A stretch of DNA of 64,000 nt from an uncultured Granulosicoccaceae bacterium. GTDB taxonomy: Bacteria; Pseudomonadota; Gammaproteobacteria; Granulosicoccales; Granulosicoccaceae. Where the stretch lies: positions 1-64,000 of the forward strand of contig CALFCF010000030.1 in the NCBI GenBank assembly GCA_937951345.1, given 5' to 3'. Position numbers and translations under genes: made by a program. Shown here piece after piece: positions 481 to 33,495 of this stretch; the first letter of the stretch is position 1; every line of letters starts with the position of its first letter. The notes under the pieces were generated by a model. The model did no database searches and was not told where the DNA came from. It saw only the letters and a program-made list of their open reading frames with translations.

Positions 481-3342
481 TTAGTGGTCATGCTCTAGCC
501 GTTGCCACTTGTCTTCATCGCGGCGCAGTTCAACCGTCGGCCAGAATTGATACTCCGGCTGAACACTGACGATGCCACGACGCCCCGTGGTTGTCACGAC
601 TGACAGTCGCGTAATCTGATCCTGTTCTTTTTTCAAAACCTCAGCCAGAAATTCATCAAGGTTGGTCACCGCAACACCGTCAACCGCAGTGACAAATCGA
701 TTGCGGAACAGTCTGTCCCAAAGTGCCGGTGAGCCATGCTGCGTGCTACTGATGTAGACACCGTCCGGGCTGACGCCACGATACAGTGCGATCTCACGAT
801 GCGCATCCTGAAAGGTTGCACCTGCCCATTGAATAATGCGATCCGTACCGTTGGTCGACAGTAACGAGGGTTTGATATTGAGCTGCAATACCTCACCATT
901 ACGCAAGACACTGATATCAATATTGTCTTTTTGGACACGCTTTTCAACTTCGAACAAATCAGCAACCAACTCACCATCAATCGCGAGCAGAATGTCACCC
1001 ACTTCGAGCAAGGTCTCGGCATGCGTTCCGGGAACCACTTGCTGCACATAAAGCACGCGCCGTGATTCAGCATCCAGCGCCAGATAGCGTGTCAACCACT
1101 CATCCGGTAAACCGAGCTGACGTGAAAGAGCGATGGGTCGGTAGTCAAGTGTGGCATCCAGCGAATAAAAACCCTTGTCAGATTTATACAGGCGCAACGC
1201 TTCTGCCAGTAAAGGTGCAGGCATCGCCCATTCCTGTTGCTGGATATCCTGTCCGTCCTGATAAGCGAAGCTCATCCAGATAGCCTGAACCACCCCATCG
1301 GCATTTACCAACGGACCCCCGAGCGATGGGGGCATATCCGGAACACCGTACAGATCGACCACACTTTGCTGAAATCGCGCCAACCGTGGAGATTGCAAAG
1401 CAAGCGTTAACCGGCTGGTTTCAGTCACTGGATGTTTGCGAAACGTGCCATCCTGTCGATAGCCAATCATAAACAGTGGCTGCGTGAGCGGTTGGTTATC
1501 AACCTGCAGCTCCAGTGCCTCGAAGTCCACATCACCAAGATCTGCCGGATCATATTTGAGCAGGGCAATGTTGTGCGACGGATGCAGAAAGACCACTCTG
1601 GCATCAAGCAGTGTTGAACCGAAGAATGTTATCTCTGCATCGCCGAGACCTATAGGTACGGTGTTGCGATCAACAGCAATCAGCCCTTCTTCCGTATCAA
1701 CGACAAGCCCGACGCCATTGAAGTGATTGGCGTACACATTATCAAGCGTATGCGGAATATGGAAATCCACCCGCACCAATGCAGGTGCAACACTGTTGAG
1801 CAAAGGGTCACGGTAGAACGGCAATTTGACGGCGGTCGATGCGGATGCATCAGTCGCATCTGGTAACTCGATTACCGAGCAATCCCAGAAACGGGCGTTG
1901 TCAACGCGTGTACATTGTTGATGCGAGAACCAACGATTGTCGATATCAATTTGCGCAATTGAGTTAGTGAACTCACGGCCCGGCTGTACCAAACGGGCGA
2001 GCATTTTACCGTCACGCTCCTGACGCAGTACAGATAGCAAATCATCAACGTTGTTAAGCTGCCGGCCGTCAAGTTCAGTAATGACCGATCCCGCTGGTAC
2101 GTTGGCACGTTCCAGAAAATAACCGGGGCGCACGATCACAACACCTTGTTGCGGCAGGTTCATCGCGCGCGAGTGTTGAATCGACATATTTTGAAAAATG
2201 CTGTCACCAATCTCGACGAACCGGTCAGGCGAAAGCGCATGCAGATCAGCCACTGCAACGGCAACCTGGATCGCCTCGCCCTGACGGACCAGTTCCACGT
2301 TTAACTGCTTGTCGATCGATGCATCAAGGATCGCTTCAAGATCCACATAATTGGCTATGAGCTGACCGTCAACACTGACCAGAATGTCGCCTTCGACAAA
2401 CTGCCCGTCAGCAACACCATCAGGCAGGATCTGCGATACCGTCAACATGCCGTTATTGGTCGGATCGAGTTGGCGCACACTGTCTTCAGTTGCCTGATCC
2501 AGACCAAGCCTGCGTAGTGAACGAAACGGCCGATGAGCAAACAGCGTTTGCAGCGTACCGCGATCAATAGCCTCATTGTCCTGCAAGCGTTTCAGTGCAT
2601 GCTGGACACGGTACAACGGCAGAAAGAAACTGCTGGCAGTGCGCGTGTTGGCTGCAGCGTTCAATGCAACCACATCGCCATCGAAATCAATAACAGGTGA
2701 TCCCGATGATCCCCCGGAGGTTGATGACGCCGCCTGCAGGTAAAATGTATTGAAGTCGTTGTAACCGTAACGTCCATAACTCGGTGCTTCGCGATCTATA
2801 CGCGCAATCGTGCCGGTTAGAATGGACAACTGTTCACCCCCGTCACTGCCCAGTACCCGGATATTTAAACCTGTGCGTACTTTGTCCGGGCGCAATTGCA
2901 GCGACTCGGGTTTGGCATATTGGAGTTTCGCCGGGTCATAACGCAGGAACGCAAAGTCATGCACCGGATCGCGATAAAGCGGCATGGCATCAACACGTTC
3001 CTGGTTCTGGAATGTTGCGCTGAAGCGTACCGGCCCGGAACCGACGATATGACGATTGGTCAAAATGATGCCGCGTTCAGCATCGACAACGAAACCGGTG
3101 CCACCGCTGCCGCCCTGATCCGCATCACCGAAAGAGCGTAGCTGCGATAACTGCAACGACACAACTGACTCGGCTGTGCGGGCAACTGTACGTGCCCATT
3201 GGTCATCCTGCGCGCTTACCGGGTGTGCAAGCGCCAGCAACACACAGAGGAAAGTCAGACCCGGCAGCCGGGCTGCGTATCTGATAACGCCGAAAAATCG
3301 GGCGGAACGTTGAGTTAGGGTAACAACAACCAGCTTCAACAT
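481..3342 (-). CDS. Double HtrA/DegP-like protein: active plus degenerate trypsin-like domain, four PDZ-like domains
   Basis: The protein is exported and about 953 residues long, with the hydrophobic stretch LPGLTFLCVLLALAHPVSA as probable signal peptide. It is built as two copies of protease plus two PDZ-like domains. The first protease domain keeps an HtrA triad: His in TNRHIV, Asp in PVHDFAF and Ser in GGSSGSP. In the second domain the matching segments read VDRNTV, PSHNIAL and PSLGGP, so His, Asp and Ser appear replaced by Asn, Asn and Leu. PDZ-like segments follow each domain (for example LEVGDILLAIDGELV). The duplicated plan with a dead second half resembles yeast Nma111. The start is the ATG at 3342 with GAAGGA upstream; a TTG start at 3402 would add 20 residues. 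A role in envelope protein quality control is inference from the family. Confidence 0.85.
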   Translation of the reverse strand: MLKLVVVTLTQRSARFFGVIRYAARLPGLTFLCVLLALAHPVSAQDDQWARTVARTAESVVSLQLSQLRSFGDADQGGSGGTGFVVDAERGIILTNRHIVGSGPVRFSATFQNQERVDAMPLYRDPVHDFAFLRYDPAKLQYAKPESLQLRPDKVRTGLNIRVLGSDGGEQLSILTGTIARIDREAPSYGRYGYNDFNTFYLQAASSTSGGSSGSPVIDFDGDVVALNAAANTRTASSFFLPLYRVQHALKRLQDNEAIDRGTLQTLFAHRPFRSLRRLGLDQATEDSVRQLDPTNNGMLTVSQILPDGVADGQFVEGDILVSVDGQLIANYVDLEAILDASIDKQLNVELVRQGEAIQVAVAVADLHALSPDRFVEIGDSIFQNMSIQHSRAMNLPQQGVVIVRPGYFLERANVPAGSVITELDGRQLNNVDDLLSVLRQERDGKMLARLVQPGREFTNSIAQIDIDNRWFSHQQCTRVDNARFWDCSVIELPDATDASASTAVKLPFYRDPLLNSVAPALVRVDFHIPHTLDNVYANHFNGVGLVVDTEEGLIAVDRNTVPIGLGDAEITFFGSTLLDARVVFLHPSHNIALLKYDPADLGDVDFEALELQVDNQPLTQPLFMIGYRQDGTFRKHPVTETSRLTLALQSPRLARFQQSVVDLYGVPDMPPSLGGPLVNADGVVQAIWMSFAYQDGQDIQQQEWAMPAPLLAEALRLYKSDKGFYSLDATLDYRPIALSRQLGLPDEWLTRYLALDAESRRVLYVQQVVPGTHAETLLEVGDILLAIDGELVADLFEVEKRVQKDNIDISVLRNGEVLQLNIKPSLLSTNGTDRIIQWAGATFQDAHREIALYRGVSPDGVYISSTQHGSPALWDRLFRNRFVTAVDGVAVTNLDEFLAEVLKKEQDQITRLSVVTTTGRRGIVSVQPEYQFWPTVELRRDEDKWQRLEHDH

Positions 3343-3765
3343 GATGCAGTGGATTCCTTCGTCATCGACGGGATGGAGGTAAAACAATCTGACCTTGCTC
3401 AATCGACGTTTGGCGCCTGTGTTAGCTGCATACCTTCGCCGATCGAACCACGGTTAATAAAGTAAAACTAACAGGCGAAAGCGCCTTGCCTGATAAGCGG
3501 ATAACAAACATCGGAAAATCGACTCCAGATCATACAAGCAATAAGACCGCCAGTGCGGCAAATATATCCCGACAGGGAAATGACACTGCCGTAAACGTGT
3601 CGCGCCGGCCGTCAGCACGGCTCCGACGTTAAATAAGGTCGCGTGAGTCGCGGTAATTAGCCGGACAGAGACTCCTATCACTTCCGGCAGCCGCCTGCTA
3701 AGGTAATGTATAGGCTCAGAACGGCTCCGAACAGCCTCGATTCAGTTCGTGCCCGGCACAATGCG
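3343..3765. other. Intergenic region between divergent genes
   Basis: This stretch separates the minus-strand double HtrA gene from plus-strand argA and must hold both promoters. I see a small GC hairpin near 3471-3486 (AGGCG, AAAG, CGCCT) but no convincing promoter boxes, operator or RNA gene. The two genes have alternative upstream starts at 3402 and 3706 within it, so the true non-coding part may be about 300 bases. Confidence 0.4.
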
Positions 3766-5205
3766 ATGACCGATAGACAACCCGACAACACTTTGCCACC
3801 AGAGCAACCTCTGGATAATGATGCTAACGAAATCGCCTGGTTTCGTCAGGCATCGCCCTACATAAAAGCCTACCGCAATAGTACGCTGGTGCTGCACATC
3901 GATGGCAGCTTGCTCGACAGCACCAACTGCCCAGTGATGGCACAGGATATCGCCCTGCTGAGTCACTTGGGTTTACGACTGGTGCTGGTACCCGGATTGC
4001 GTCACCGCATCAACCGTGAGCTTGAGGCCGAAAACATGACCTCAAGAGCAATCGATGCGACGCGTGCAACTGATTCTGCAACCCTTGCCATCGTGCGTCG
4101 CGTAGCTGGGGAAGTCCGCATCGAGATGGAAAGCCTGTTATCGCTCGGTCTGGTAAATACACCGATGGCAGGGGCTCACCTGAGCGTGGTCTCCGGCAAT
4201 TTCGTCACGGCGCAACCGGTCGGCGTGCGCAACGGTATTGACTTCGGCTACGCAGGCGAGGTCCGGAAAATCCACCGGCAGGCGATCGACACCCACATGG
4301 CGTCCGGCCATATCGTACTTCTGCCGCCATTGGGCTACTCGCGAACCGGCGAACTTTTCAACTTGCAAAGTGAACATCTCGCCGCAACTACTGCGGCTGC
4401 GTTAAATGCGGACAAACTGGTGTATTTATCGCCGCAGAAACTGTGTGACGAGGCGGGCAATGTTCTGGCAGAAGCGGCGGCAGAGGACGTCCGTTTGTTA
4501 GCTGACGCAACCGACGGTGATGATGTTGCACGGCTGGCGTTACTCGGTGCAGTCATCAAGGCAAGCGATACAACTGTGGGCCGTGTGCATGTACTCGATA
4601 GCAACAATCCGGATGCGTTGCTCAAGGAGCTATTTACCCGCGACGGCTCAGGCACACTGATCAGTGCCACTGACTTCGACACGATCAGACCCGCCACAAT
4701 TGATGATGTCGGTGGCATCATCGAATTGATTGAACCCCTTGAGCAGGACGGTACACTGCTGCCTCGCTCGCGCGAGCAGCTGGAGCTGGCGATAGATGAT
4801 TACGTCGTCTGCGAACGCGAAGGTATGGTTACCGCTTGTGCTGCACTGAGCGTTGCGAAAGCCCCTGCAAACTATCAGGATCAATCGTTAAAATCGGCGG
4901 AAATCGCCTGTGTCGTGACTCATCCGGCCTATCGCGACGGTGGCCGTGCCGAACAACTGCTCAGGTTGTTGCTTCAACTCGCAATCGAACGCGGGGTCGG
5001 ATTGGTTTATGTACTGACGACACGCACCAATCACTGGTTCATGGAGCGGGGATTCATCGAAGCCGAACCGGATGTTCTGCCACAGGACCGGCGCTACGAT
5101 ATAAAACGAAACTCGCGCGTGTTAATCAAAACCGTAGACGCACATAAAAGTGATCGCAAAGCAAATGATCAGAAAATCACTGCATTTACTGCTCAGCAAC
5201 GCTAA
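3766..5205 (+). CDS. argA: N-acetylglutamate synthase (amino-acid N-acetyltransferase)
   Basis: It acetylates glutamate with acetyl-CoA, the first step of arginine synthesis, in the cytoplasm. The protein follows E. coli ArgA along its length: an N-terminal amino-acid-kinase-like domain opening with WFRQASPYIKAYR, the motif GAHLSVVSGNFVTAQPVGV, then LFTRDGSGTLIS, and a C-terminal GNAT domain from TIRPATIDDVGGIIELIEPLE through REQLE, IACVVTHPAYRDGGRAEQLL and LTTRTNHWFMERGF. Translation could start at 3706 (AAGG very close to ATG) or 3766; I chose 3766 because its leader length fits the family, without a strong ribosome site to prove it. The kinase-like domain normally carries arginine feedback control. 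A polar 30-residue tail follows the GNAT core and overlaps the convergent LON-domain gene by 20 nt. Confidence 0.95.
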   Translation: MTDRQPDNTLPPEQPLDNDANEIAWFRQASPYIKAYRNSTLVLHIDGSLLDSTNCPVMAQDIALLSHLGLRLVLVPGLRHRINRELEAENMTSRAIDATRATDSATLAIVRRVAGEVRIEMESLLSLGLVNTPMAGAHLSVVSGNFVTAQPVGVRNGIDFGYAGEVRKIHRQAIDTHMASGHIVLLPPLGYSRTGELFNLQSEHLAATTAAALNADKLVYLSPQKLCDEAGNVLAEAAAEDVRLLADATDGDDVARLALLGAVIKASDTTVGRVHVLDSNNPDALLKELFTRDGSGTLISATDFDTIRPATIDDVGGIIELIEPLEQDGTLLPRSREQLELAIDDYVVCEREGMVTACAALSVAKAPANYQDQSLKSAEIACVVTHPAYRDGGRAEQLLRLLLQLAIERGVGLVYVLTTRTNHWFMERGFIEAEPDVLPQDRRYDIKRNSRVLIKTVDAHKSDRKANDQKITAFTAQQR

Positions 5206-6110: not shown

Positions 6111-9100
6111 TTACTGAACCGGTGATACAACGACTTCTATTCGACGATTCAATGCCCGTCCTTCACGCGTGTCGTTACCGGCAACAGGCCGGAACTCACC
6201 AAAGCCAGACGCTGATAGATTGTCCGGATCGATGCCGCCTTGATTCTGCATGAAATTAACCGCATTGGCAGCACGCGCGACTGATAACTCCCAGTTACTC
6301 GGGAACACCTGCTGAAGTTGTCCGGTTACCGGTATGCTATCAGTGTGCCCTTCAATACGGATCTGATTTTCCGGAAAACCGCGCAATACCGCTGAAACAC
6401 GCTCCATCAATTGTCGGCCGTCGGCGCTCAAACGCGCCCGCCCCGAAGCAAACAACGACTCACTGCGAAGGTTGATTCCCACACTGTTGTCGGCTCTGAC
6501 TTCAACCTGTGGGTCGTCCACACCGTTTGACTGCAATGACTGTATCAGCGAACTGCGCAGCGACTGTGCTTCACTGTCATCATTCTGGCTATTGACTGCC
6601 TGATTCAATTCGTTCTGCAGCGACGCTACACGCTCTGCAAGATTTTGTGCCAGCGCGGTTTGTTCAGAAGCACGCGATTGCTCGGCACCTATTTGCCCTT
6701 GCAACTGTTTGGCAAGCTCTGCATTAGCATCCGCTTCCTGCTGCCTGGCAGACGCGGCATCTTTCGCTGCGGCAAGTTGCTGTTCAAGATCGCTGACACT
6801 GGCGTCAAGTGTCTGTTGCGCACCTTCAGCTTCTGATAATTTGGCGTTCGCATCAGTCAGCTGGCTGGTCAGATCGATATTGATACCTTCAAGCTCACCG
6901 ATTTTTGCATTCAGATCGCCTGTCGATGTTTTGAGGTCCGCGACCATTGCGTTTGAAGAGTCAAGCTGGCTGTTCAACTCACCAATCATCGTGTTGGCAG
7001 AATCGAGCTGACCGCTCAAGTCGCCTCCACTGGCTTCAAGCTCACCCACTTTTGCCGTCAGCTCTGCGTTGGTGCCTTTCAACTCATCAATCATGGTGTT
7101 GGCGGAATCGAGCTGGCCGCTCAAGTCGCCACCACTGGCTTCAAGCTCGCCGAGCTTCGCCGTCAGATCAGCATTAGTGCCTTTCAACTCATCAATCATG
7201 GTGTTGGCGGAATCGAGCTGGCCGCTCAAGTCACCACCACTGGCTTCGAGCTCGCCGAGCTTCACTGTCAGATCAGCATTGCTGCCCTTCAACTCATCAA
7301 TCATGGTGTTGGCCGAGCTCAGCTGGCCGCTTAAGTCACCACCACTGGCTTCAAGATCAGCAAGCTTTGCTGTTAGCTCCGTGTTGTCCGCATCCAGTTC
7401 ACCGATGCGCGTATTTGCTGCCTTTAACTCCGCCGCTATCCCGGAACCGGCGGTCTCGACTTCACCGAGTTTGGCTGTCAGTTCACCATTCATACCTTCG
7501 AGTTCGCCAATGCGAACGTTGGCTTCAACTAATTGTTCACCCAATCCGTCACGCTCGGCTTCAACGTTACCAAGTAATGAATTGAGTTGGTCGGCAGCGT
7601 TGCTGACATCATCTTTTTGTGTGCCCAACAGCGCAAGCTGCGACTCGGCATCACCAAGTAATGTGTTGAGTTGGCCGGTTGCACGATTTAAATCGGCTTG
7701 CTGGGTTTTCAGCAATTCAACCTCTTTTTCAAGATCTGCCGTTGCACCCGCTGCTGATTCTTCCTGCTCGCCGATCTTCGCGAGTAACCCGTCGTTGGCA
7801 CCACGTAAATCTTCGATCTGCTGATTCAGTGAAGCCACATCGGTGTCGTACATCACTTTGAATGTTTCAAGTTCTGTTTTATCGGTGTCGCTCGTTGTTT
7901 GTGCCGTACCCAGCTGCGCTTCCAGATCACTGACTTTAGCGTTCAGCCCATCGATTTCGGCGTTAGCGCTATCAAGACCCTCAACTGTTTTTCTTAGACC
8001 GTCGAGTTCCGCCTGTAACGCAACTTCACGCGCCTGCAAGCTGGCAAGCTCCTGTTCCGCAGATGCTGTTGCACCGCCGGCTTCGTCGATAGTGGCTTGC
8101 AACTCGGCAACTTTTGTCTCGAGTTCGGCGACCTTGTTTTCAGCCTCCTTCGCTGCGGTGTCGGCGCTACTGAAACCGAGTTTGGCTTCTTCAAGTTCTG
8201 CGCTCAGGCTTGACAGTTGCCCGTCTTTCTCTGCGAGCATCGCTTCAGACTCCGCTGTATGCTCGTCGATCAACGGCTGCAGCAGTGACGCGTTATCGGG
8301 GTTCTGTAAAAAGCCCTGCGTCTGCATGGAAAGCTTACCTTCGAGCACACCAGCTTCACGCGTCAACAGCGAGTTCTGTACACGTAAATCTTCCATCCTT
8401 TCATTAGCGGCTTGCTCTGCCGCGGCGATCTGCTCGTCAAACCCTGCCTGCAGTTCAGCTAGCTTGGCTTCGTTGTCGGCCCGCAGTTGCTCTATCGCGG
8501 CGTCATGCTGAGACTGCATCTCGCCCAGCTTCGCATCACTCGCAGCCTGTGCGTCGGCGATTGCCTGTGCGCCAGCTGCTTCTGCATCAGCCACTGCTTG
8601 CGCGCCGGCTGCCTCTGCATCGGCTAGTGCTTGTGCGCCTGATGCGGCACTGTTGCTGTTGGCCTGTCGCAACTGTGCTTCAAGCTCACTGATTTGAGAA
8701 GTCAGGATGTCGACTTCTGTCGTGTCAGTGTTAACCGCAAGCAAATCTTCAATTGATGTTTTGAGCTGGTCGACTTCGGATGTATCAGAGAGTGCAGCCT
8801 CCTGTTCGGCAAGCTGCTGGTTAAGCAAGCCCAGCTGTTGAGAGGCGGCTTCGCGTTCGGATTCGAAATTTGCACTCATCTCCTGTTGCGACTGCAGAGC
8901 AGCTTGCAAGTCCAGCAATTGCGCGCTTAGAGAATCGCGTTCGCTGGTCAGTGCTTCGCCCGCCTGCGCCGCTTCTGTGCCTGATTCGTTGAGCTCAGCG
9001 ACTTTTAAATTCAGCGACTGGATTTCTTCCTGACCGCCCTGGATGGCGACCTCACGCTCCTGCAATTCAGCCTGCAGGCTTCCGACCTCCTGCTGTGACA

Positions 9101-9230
9101 GGCGATAGTCTGCCTGGATGCCTGAGCGCGATGACCAGGCGATAATTAAGGCCAGCAATGTCAGAGCCGCCAGTATCAGCTTGGTCAGGTAGGATTTCTG
9201 ACTGGGGGAATTCAACAGATCGTCGATCAT
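6111..9230 (-). CDS. Membrane-anchored long coiled-coil protein with C-terminal OmpA/MotB domain
   Basis: The 1039-residue protein has a short cytoplasmic N-terminus, one membrane segment near residues 17-34 (LILAALTLLALIIAW), about 850 residues of predicted coiled coil, and a C-terminal OmpA-like peptidoglycan-binding domain. That domain shows RIEGHTDSIP, SNWELSVARAANAV and a terminal ALNRRIEVVV, as in MotB and OmpA proteins. The coil includes an alanine-rich 11-residue repeat (GAQAVADAEAA type) and nearly identical 35-residue repeats (DLSGQLDSANTMIDEL start), equal to five heptads. The architecture suggests an inner-membrane anchor reaching across the periplasm to peptidoglycan. The specific function is unknown. 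GGATGGAG precedes the ATG, supporting the start. A terminator lies downstream. Confidence 0.88.
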   Translation of the reverse strand: MIDDLLNSPSQKSYLTKLILAALTLLALIIAWSSRSGIQADYRLSQQEVGSLQAELQEREVAIQGGQEEIQSLNLKVAELNESGTEAAQAGEALTSERDSLSAQLLDLQAALQSQQEMSANFESEREAASQQLGLLNQQLAEQEAALSDTSEVDQLKTSIEDLLAVNTDTTEVDILTSQISELEAQLRQANSNSAASGAQALADAEAAGAQAVADAEAAGAQAIADAQAASDAKLGEMQSQHDAAIEQLRADNEAKLAELQAGFDEQIAAAEQAANERMEDLRVQNSLLTREAGVLEGKLSMQTQGFLQNPDNASLLQPLIDEHTAESEAMLAEKDGQLSSLSAELEEAKLGFSSADTAAKEAENKVAELETKVAELQATIDEAGGATASAEQELASLQAREVALQAELDGLRKTVEGLDSANAEIDGLNAKVSDLEAQLGTAQTTSDTDKTELETFKVMYDTDVASLNQQIEDLRGANDGLLAKIGEQEESAAGATADLEKEVELLKTQQADLNRATGQLNTLLGDAESQLALLGTQKDDVSNAADQLNSLLGNVEAERDGLGEQLVEANVRIGELEGMNGELTAKLGEVETAGSGIAAELKAANTRIGELDADNTELTAKLADLEASGGDLSGQLSSANTMIDELKGSNADLTVKLGELEASGGDLSGQLDSANTMIDELKGTNADLTAKLGELEASGGDLSGQLDSANTMIDELKGTNAELTAKVGELEASGGDLSGQLDSANTMIGELNSQLDSSNAMVADLKTSTGDLNAKIGELEGINIDLTSQLTDANAKLSEAEGAQQTLDASVSDLEQQLAAAKDAASARQQEADANAELAKQLQGQIGAEQSRASEQTALAQNLAERVASLQNELNQAVNSQNDDSEAQSLRSSLIQSLQSNGVDDPQVEVRADNSVGINLRSESLFASGRARLSADGRQLMERVSAVLRGFPENQIRIEGHTDSIPVTGQLQQVFPSNWELSVARAANAVNFMQNQGGIDPDNLSASGFGEFRPVAGNDTREGRALNRRIEVVVSPVQ
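6991..7350 (-). repeat. 105-bp in-frame tandem repeats coding 35-residue coiled-coil units
   Basis: The string GTGTTGGC recurs at 6991, 7096, 7201 and 7306, giving a period of exactly 105 bp. The second and third units are nearly identical at DNA level; the outer ones are more diverged and the last is partial. Each unit codes 35 residues (five heptads) in the coiled coil of the OmpA-domain protein, so copy changes would keep both reading frame and heptad phase. Confidence 0.9.
8541..8640 (-). repeat. 33-bp in-frame repeats coding an Ala-rich 11-residue unit
   Basis: Three consecutive 33-bp units code GAQALADAEAA, GAQAVADAEAA and GAQAIADAQAA within the coiled-coil protein. An 11-residue (hendecad) period also fits a coiled coil. 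Boundaries are approximate. Confidence 0.8.
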
Positions 9231-32388: not shown

Positions 32389-33495
32389 ATGCGAATCGAA
32401 ATTATAAACACAGACAGCGGTTTCGATTCCCTGCGCGATAGCTGGGAGCGTCTGACAGACAATACGCCAAACTATGGCATTTTCAACAGCTTTGACTGTA
32501 ATAGATTGTGGTGGAAGCACCATCAACACCTGGGTGAGCTGTCAATTTTTGTTGCCATCGAAAACGAACAGGTCATTGGAATTGCGCCACTCTACCGCCA
32601 CACCAGTCGCCGATTCGGATTCCTGACACTCAACACATTATCCTTCATCGGAAGAGGTGCAAGCACTACGCCGGATGATCTTGATCTGATTGTAGATGCG
32701 AGCAATGCAACACATACGTTGAAAGCACTCTGTCAAGCGGTTTTCGCTGATCCGGATATAAAACGCATACATCTGCGGGATGTTCCGTTGACCAGTAAAA
32801 CACCTGACATCATCACCAGTTTTCTCGCAGACAACCCGGGGCATAAAAAATCCAGCACTGTCCGTTCAGGGCCAACCCAGACCCGACTGTATGAAGATCT
32901 GCCTGCTGACTGGCAAACTTACCTGTCCGCACAATCAAGAAACTTCCGCAAGCAGGTCAAGCGACGCAACAATCGATTGCAACGTACGGGAACAGCCCGG
33001 TTTCCGCTATGCAAAACACCAGATGAAATTGCTGCAACGTTCGATGCACTGGTCGAGTTGCACCATTCTCGTTGGGACAGTAAGTCCCAAACTGACGACC
33101 ACACAGGCTCCGAATCGTTCACAGAAAGTAGTTATCTGTCATTTCATCGCGACTTGACAGACACACTGGGTCAAAAAGACCGGCTCTGGTTGCAACGTTT
33201 CGAGCTTGACGGGCAGTTGATCGGCGTCGAGTATGCGTTTTCCTACAACAACCGTCTGTATCTTTTTCAAACCGGGTTTCTTCCCGAATACAACCACCTG
33301 GCGCCTGGTCACTTGATGATGAGCCAGCTTATCGAGAAGGCCATTACTGCCGGCATAAAAGAAATAGATCTGCTGAAGGGCGACTACGAGTATAAACAAA
33401 GTTACGCCGGAAAGCGCAGAGAGTCATTGGATATCGAAATTCTGCGCGGTCCGTTGGTAAAAACAATTAGCCGTGTATTCACTAATCGCACCTAA
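32389..33495 (+). CDS. FemAB/CelD-like GNAT acetyltransferase (Acetyltransf_6 type)
   Basis: The 368-residue protein matches the double-GNAT layout of the CelD/BcsL and FemX group. The N-terminal half shows WERLTDNTPNYGIFNSFDCNRLWWKHH and EQVIGIAPLYRH; the C-terminal half shows LSAQSRNFRKQVKRRNNRLQ, then LQRFELDGQLIGVEYAFSYNNRLYLFQTGFLPEY and LAPGHLMMSQLIEKAITAGIKEIDLLKGDYEYKQSY. Such enzymes transfer acyl or aminoacyl groups, often in envelope polysaccharide or peptidoglycan pathways; the acceptor here is unknown. It stands alone, divergent from the DUF218 gene. Its stop codon TAA is part of a CTAA that abuts a 13-nt mobile-element end. Confidence 0.85.
   Translation: MRIEIINTDSGFDSLRDSWERLTDNTPNYGIFNSFDCNRLWWKHHQHLGELSIFVAIENEQVIGIAPLYRHTSRRFGFLTLNTLSFIGRGASTTPDDLDLIVDASNATHTLKALCQAVFADPDIKRIHLRDVPLTSKTPDIITSFLADNPGHKKSSTVRSGPTQTRLYEDLPADWQTYLSAQSRNFRKQVKRRNNRLQRTGTARFPLCKTPDEIAATFDALVELHHSRWDSKSQTDDHTGSESFTESSYLSFHRDLTDTLGQKDRLWLQRFELDGQLIGVEYAFSYNNRLYLFQTGFLPEYNHLAPGHLMMSQLIEKAITAGIKEIDLLKGDYEYKQSYAGKRRESLDIEILRGPLVKTISRVFTNRT

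Follow-up and report, generated by a model that had tools for sequence, protein, structure and literature searches.

A bacterial double HtrA protein with the tandem layout of plant Deg7 and a degenerate second protease half

DegP has one HtrA unit. Tandem HtrA proteins in which one half is dead have been described from plants and also occur in fungi, where yeast Nma111 (Ynm3) has the double HtrA layout. We take PDZ_1 (PF12812) domains to mark this eukaryotic Deg7/Nma111 family. The architecture given for plant Deg7 is PD-PDZ-PDZ-inactive PD-PDZ-PDZ, and the same source relates that the inactive domain is involved in trimerization (PMC3473262). Deg7 has been reported from the stroma, cytosol, nucleus or mitochondrion (PMC4130198), and chaperone activity has been reported for Ynm3/Nma111 (PMC4877387). 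Among bacteria, the HtrA-type pseudoprotease MamO is reported to activate MamE-dependent proteolysis and to bind metal (PMC4794232). The trimer of HTRA1 is described as stabilised by stacking of Y169, F171 and F278 (PMC7351529, PMC8509474). Our search of the open-licence literature found no report of a double HtrA from bacteria in which one half is dead. Here we describe such a protein, a bacterial instance of the published Deg7 layout, encoded in a 64,000-nucleotide stretch of DNA (the window) from an uncultured Granulosicoccaceae bacterium.

Domain layout and predicted fold

The preliminary description of this locus left the strand of the gene unstated. Reading of the open reading frames places it on the minus strand, where the frame is open for 953 residues with the stop included in the coding span; the plus frame across the same positions is interrupted by 26 stops (Table 1). 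The chain starts with an export-type N-terminus and then runs twice through the order protease-PDZ-PDZ_1. Pfam matches on the 953-residue protein comprised two stretches of Trypsin_2 and two of PDZ_1, together with PDZ_2 and PDZ_6. In frame searches of the whole genome both PDZ_1 copies scored above the cut-off of 28 bits (44.3 and 38.1), as did both Trypsin_2 copies above theirs of 27.6 (91 and 29.6). The host genome holds eight further Trypsin_2 places, so the double HtrA is not the sole protease of its kind there. The nearest NCBIfam family is that of the Do proteases (TIGR02037), which the protein matches at 131.6 bits, far below the cut-off of 416.2.

Table 1 Positions of the double HtrA gene and its parts in the window (residue numbers refer to the encoded protein; counts are alignment rows)
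Feature	Positions	Strand	Basis or detail
Double HtrA gene, 953 aa	481..3342	-	coding sequence with stop
Export-type N-terminus, residues 1-44	3211..3342	-	judged from sequence, crude hydrophobicity count
First protease domain, residues 49-262, intact triad	2557..3198	-	Trypsin_2, triad columns
His98, catalytic His codon	3049..3051	-	101/101 residues, 3 gaps
Asp129, catalytic Asp codon	2956..2958	-	101/101 residues, 3 gaps
Ser213, catalytic Ser codon, in GGSSGSP	2704..2706	-	102/102 residues, 2 gaps
First PDZ domain, residues 263-368	2239..2556	-	PDZ_6 at residues 302-353
First PDZ_1 (PF12812) domain, residues 369-470	1933..2238	-	44.3 bits, cut-off 28
Inter-half linker with Cys477 and Cys488	1873..1932	-	104/104 each
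Second, inactive protease domain, about residues 512-716	1195..1809	-	Trypsin_2 29.6 bits; model and fold search
Asn560 at the His position, in D-R-N-T-V-P	1663..1665	-	Asn 95, Asp 3, Ser 3, Thr 1, Tyr 1 (n=103)
Asn591 at the Asp position	1570..1572	-	Asn 102, Asp 1 (n=103)
Leu674 at the Ser position, in a loop shortened by three residues relative to the first half	1321..1323	-	Ser 0/103; alignment gap
Second PDZ domain, residues 717-835	838..1194	-	PDZ_2 at residues 762-824
Second PDZ_1 (PF12812) domain, residues 836-935	538..837	-	38.1 bits

Aligned as profiles, the second half matched the first collinearly over 395 columns (probability 100, E 6.8e-45). The PDZ domains also pair in order, with E values of 4.1e-25 for the first PDZ domains and 2e-14 for the PDZ_1 domains; the cross pairs are weak (4.7e-5 and 0.0024). 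The whole HtrA unit is present twice, as a duplication that keeps the order of its domains. The same alignment pairs His98 with Asn560, Asp129 with Asn591 and Ser213 with Leu674, and leaves the second-half Ser loop three residues short. The two protease-PDZ-PDZ halves, the intact first triad and the Asn, Asn and Leu of the second, all proposed earlier from the letters of the DNA, were thus recovered by Pfam, frame searches and profile alignment.

The preliminary description had further called the second half a pseudoprotease, and structure prediction agrees with a trypsin fold there. An AlphaFold2 model of the second half, built with 80 sequences, had a mean pLDDT of 90.5 and a pTM of 0.88, and its best PDB match in Foldseek was DegP (4a8d, E 8.9e-21), with DegQ, Deg2 and Deg9 behind. 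Against whole DegP chains the top Foldseek rows gave TM-scores of about 0.45-0.55 and rmsd of at least 8. VIA-align returned Z 21.6 over 353 residues for DegP 3otp_A (rmsd 8.0) and Z 20.1 over 275 residues for plant Deg8 (rmsd 3.5); we read the modest TM-scores and the large whole-chain rmsd as a matter of domain placement. The full-length model (pLDDT 87.5, pTM 0.83) likewise had DegP, DegQ and other HtrA structures as its best matches. It is weak on the active-site side of the first protease, where block means fall to 60-67 for residues ~166-215, a span that includes the Ser loop, and for residues ~226-245. By prediction, then, the second half has an HtrA (trypsin/DegP-type) fold. A search by sequence for a close solved relative of residues 481-953 gave weak matches, the best being a DegP-like protein at E 0.0056.

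Conservation of the dead site

A profile search for bacterial proteins with the double layout had been proposed; relatives were found by peptide patterns and by whole-genome searches. Peptide patterns from the window protein, none of which spans the dead site, were matched against species genomes, and the best 80 of the 494 stretches found (L003-L082) were kept. These 80 comprise 68 from Gammaproteobacteria and 12 with no class assigned, with 25 from Granulosicoccaceae and 18 from Woeseiaceae. Together with 23 rows from whole-genome searches and the window itself they make an alignment of 104 rows (103 relatives), after removal of seven redundant rows and of the copies of the window itself (L001, L002, L128); the rows share kinship and are not independent. 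The second half is present in every relative read, all of which were found by matches that may include it, so members without a second half could be missed.

Wherever a row has a residue at a position of the first triad, that residue is the catalytic one; the remaining rows are gapped (Table 1). Among the 103 rows with a residue at each dead-site position, 560 is never His and 674 is never Ser. A second half that has lost both residues in all 103 rows is neither chance nor one broken copy, and catalysis was most likely lost there before the sampled lineages separated. Asn560 is replaced in 8 of the 103 rows and its role is therefore not absolute; the most divergent of these are L146, L154, L155 and L156. 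Two of them, L146 (genome G007) and L154 (G717), are divergent doubles that no longer have the Asn motif where the catalytic His would stand, and L146 carries a lipoprotein-like LTSC close to its N-terminus.

When the 196 columns of the second protease domain are ranked by conservation, Asn591 stands 7th and Asp558 8th, followed by Val562 (14th), Thr561 (17th), Arg559 (22nd), Pro563 (23rd) and Asn560 (26th). The former Ser-loop columns 674 and 672 rank 153rd and 189th. Such conservation at positions that have ceased to be catalytic suggests that they serve structure or binding. The domain as a whole is more variable than its active counterpart (mean column entropy 1.69 versus 0.97). Adjoining the dead Asp site, His587 and His590 are conserved in an H-P-x-H-N motif (residues 587-590, positions 1573-1584), which could conceivably be a metal site, as in MamO.

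Distribution, history and surroundings

In a draw of genomes from the same class, the second-half profile scored at least 326 bits in 25 of 369, the window's own included; this is a lower bound. The next genome below (G343, 69.4 bits) carries a 50-residue piece at a contig end that may be a cut member. A draw across the phylum gave five matches among 398 genomes at E 1e-25, including the window's own; all five belong to the same class. Two of them are divergent doubles, at 164.9 and 93.5 bits, so that the scores show no clean split into two groups. Three other classes of Pseudomonadota yielded none at E 1e-20 (0/289, 0/78 and 0/48), with the scoring limited in some cases to a few candidates per genome and with the class and phylum draws serving as positive controls for the same query. 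Matches to the double HtrA are thus confined to Gammaproteobacteria among the Pseudomonadota genomes sampled. Within its own family a PDZ_1 match exceeded the cut-off in 34 of 36 genomes, in 31 of them within an open frame of >900 aa.

In trees of the halves together with single HtrAs, one branch divides each of the three sets (first halves, second halves, singles) from the rest, the branch of the singles having a support of 69 in the first tree and 100 in the second. These were quick, unrooted trees with some very long branches; the first took in five probable wrong-frame rows (L084, L087, L091, L100, L104) and L117. Of the 37 single-HtrA candidates nine, these five among them, were dropped for want of a first-half profile match, in some cases because a wrong frame had been taken, and L118 was also omitted from the second tree. 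In the first tree, first and second halves have several groupings in common (among others the window with L144, L025 and L148; L066 with L079 and L113; L146 with L154), and the placement of L146/L154 differs between its first-half and second-half parts. This pattern fits one fusion followed by joint inheritance of the halves. The half profiles recognise each other; the first-half profile gives 109.2 to the best single HtrA and a median of 105 to second halves. With scores so nearly equal, and with trees that are unrooted and have very long branches, the two halves need not be closest relatives of one another.

The order of open reading frames was read at 20 of the 80 loci, and genes were annotated at three. 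In a Granulosicoccaceae locus (L005) the gene has a divergent argA on one side and a UbiH-type hydroxylase on the other, and most other loci read from this family have flanking frames of like size and strand, L014 being one of the exceptions. Judged by position and by eye, the window seems to have the same pair, in its divergent neighbour at 3706-5205 and its partial frame at 1-249. The annotated Woeseiaceae locus (L053) runs gcvPA, thiol peroxidase, gcvPB, double HtrA, M23 peptidase, and that of Povalibacter (L066) has gcvPA upstream, a diacylglycerol kinase adjoining and a threonylcarbamoyl-AMP synthase after. No obvious partner is common to these three loci across families, which suits a stand-alone function.

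Carriage on mobile elements was considered and set aside, as the second half had no match in plasmid records and no relative in a pattern-based scan of viral contigs. The whole protein matched 26 plasmid records, in no case across more than 80% of its length; the 15 matches listed cover 30-39% and bear DegQ or Do names where annotated. A stress promoter was rejected likewise, since a simple sigma-E-like pattern has no match in the 363 bases between the gene and its neighbour; sigma-70-like sites numbered five, near expectation (shuffle mean 3.1).

Two other features of the window were seen. Just downstream of the gene lies an inverted repeat (307-442) with 27-nt arms that are 93% complementary. 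Its end 16-mer has 138 copies in the genome, against 0 for a reversed control, often in inverted pairs 233 bp apart and several near contig ends; a similar end, with 2 mismatches, occurs at 33491. The repeat family is MITE- or REP-like. On the minus strand at 6111-9230, a 1039-aa frame carries a long coiled-coil-like stretch that is internally repeated, in units such as GDLSGQLDSANTMIDELKG; its C-terminus looks OmpA-like by eye.

Export, assembly and the role of the second half

A strongly hydrophobic stretch was found within the 60 residues before the conserved Trp49 in 95 of the 100 rows long enough to judge, and 90 of those 95 have a small-x-Ala site after it; the hydrophobicity criteria are crude, start codons were not fixed, and the N-terminus to about residue 44 was judged by eye and count. 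Cys477 and Cys488 occur in the linker of every row, and no other column has 10 or more Cys. The search pattern DNARFWDC contains Cys488 and may have favoured that column, and the rows found by profile keep both Cys too. Hydrophobic N-termini and an invariant Cys pair agree with a place in the oxidising periplasm and with a disulfide where the halves join. The double HtrA is probably exported, and periplasmic rather than nuclear, and a Cys477-Cys488 disulfide probably stiffens the joint between the halves.

Hand-counting back from Ser328 on an HTRA1 alignment puts the equivalent of F278 at residue 160. There, none of 102 first halves has an aromatic residue (mostly Glu, Asn or Asp), compared with 27 of 28 single HtrAs drawn from the same searches as the doubles. 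A GNPFG-type motif stands eight residues past this position in all 28 singles; 1 of 104 doubles has such a motif at any place in its sequence. With the F278-type aromatic missing from first halves, part of the usual trimer lock is gone and another contact may hold the oligomer, if one forms. These residues hint that the double HtrA uses another mode of assembly, as reported for plant Deg7, and by analogy we infer that the Deg7 trimerization result would carry over to the bacterial protein.

We favour, with a probability of roughly 0.6, the reading that this is a periplasmic counterpart of the Deg7/Nma111 layout in which the dead half holds the oligomer and the first half cuts. An HtrA unit would have been duplicated and fused once; the second copy would have lost catalysis before the sampled relatives diverged and then been kept as a non-catalytic part. 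After export to the periplasm, the dead halves may hold the oligomer in place of the aromatic trimer lock, with the Cys pair forming a disulfide that would stiffen the joint. The four PDZ domains could capture misfolded substrates and pass them to the active first half, whose cutting would serve periplasmic protein quality control. The scaffold role is argued from the analogy with Deg7 and from the absence of one known contact (F278). Against it, the equivalent column of the second half (about residue 622) is mostly Asp, Glu or Pro and not mainly aromatic, and so points to no replacement contact. The eight rows without Asn560, the modest TM-scores of the second-half model and the weakly predicted active-site side of the first protease also count against this reading.

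The preliminary description had suggested either a scaffold or a regulator, and both are plausible. As an intramolecular regulator, the dead half would switch the first protease on or off when a ligand binds at its PDZ domains or in the pseudo-active cleft. MamO, as described in relation to MamE, offers a precedent for activation and for metal binding (PMC4794232); the dead His and Asp sites are conserved though non-catalytic, and the low-confidence active-site loops of the first protease in the monomer model would fit a switch. However, no ligand or partner was found, the three annotated neighbourhoods included, and regulation is compatible with a scaffold role, so that the two readings can both be true. 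We regard regulation as a possibility to be taken seriously, if on balance an unlikely one.

It is improbable that the second half is mainly a holdase or chaperone arm that binds unfolded clients without cutting. The activity reported for Ynm3/Nma111 (PMC4877387) and the predicted DegP-type fold speak for such an arm, but sequence does not separate a holdase from a scaffold, and general client binding leaves the conserved Asn sites unexplained. Still more doubtful is a functionless, decaying remnant: the higher entropy of the second protease domain would be expected of one, but all relatives that were read, found by matches that may include the second half, retain it; its dead His and Asp sites hardly vary, and its fold is predicted with confidence. 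Least credible is a rearranged, working catalytic site, for although conserved polar residues are at hand (His587, Asp558 and Thr561, invariant in the 80-row set, and a Ser at residue 691, position 206 of alignment A1, in at least 90% of rows), the second protease domain has no invariant Ser or Cys in the 80-row set and its Ser loop is shortened and variable.

A conserved, probably exported bacterial version would be a simpler system in which to ask what the dead half does, and it bears on the origin of the eukaryotic proteins. We offer as speculation, and think it rather unlikely, that the double arose once in bacteria, swapped the aromatic lock for pseudoprotease assembly and seeded eukaryotic Deg7/Nma111, which would then not stem from the mitochondrial ancestor.

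Compared with the described systems, the window protein has the features of the Deg7/Nma111 type: two units per chain, a first triad intact, a second triad lost from a fold that is predicted to be kept, and two PDZ_1 domains over the cut-off. Plant Deg7 (At3g03380) is laid out like it, in tandem HtrA units with the second protease inactive; the bacterial protein differs in its export-type N-terminus and linker Cys pair. The parallel with Nma111 drawn at the outset holds for the tandem layout with a pseudoprotease half, which is that of Deg7 as well, and fails for location: Nma111 (Ynm3) is a fungal, nuclear HtrA-like protein, whereas the window protein is bacterial and probably exported, with an export-type N-terminus and an invariant Cys pair. 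In DegP and DegQ of the Do family the protease-PDZ-PDZ unit resembles the predicted fold of each half, but the window protein lacks an aromatic at the F278 position and falls below the family cut-off. MamO, of the magnetosome, is likewise a bacterial HtrA-type domain whose degenerate site is described as kept for non-catalytic roles (PMC4794232), as the second half may be. MamO, however, stands as a protein of its own that has a metal site and a transporter domain, works with MamE and has no active half in tandem; the double HtrA widens the set of bacterial HtrA-type pseudoproteases to which MamO belongs.
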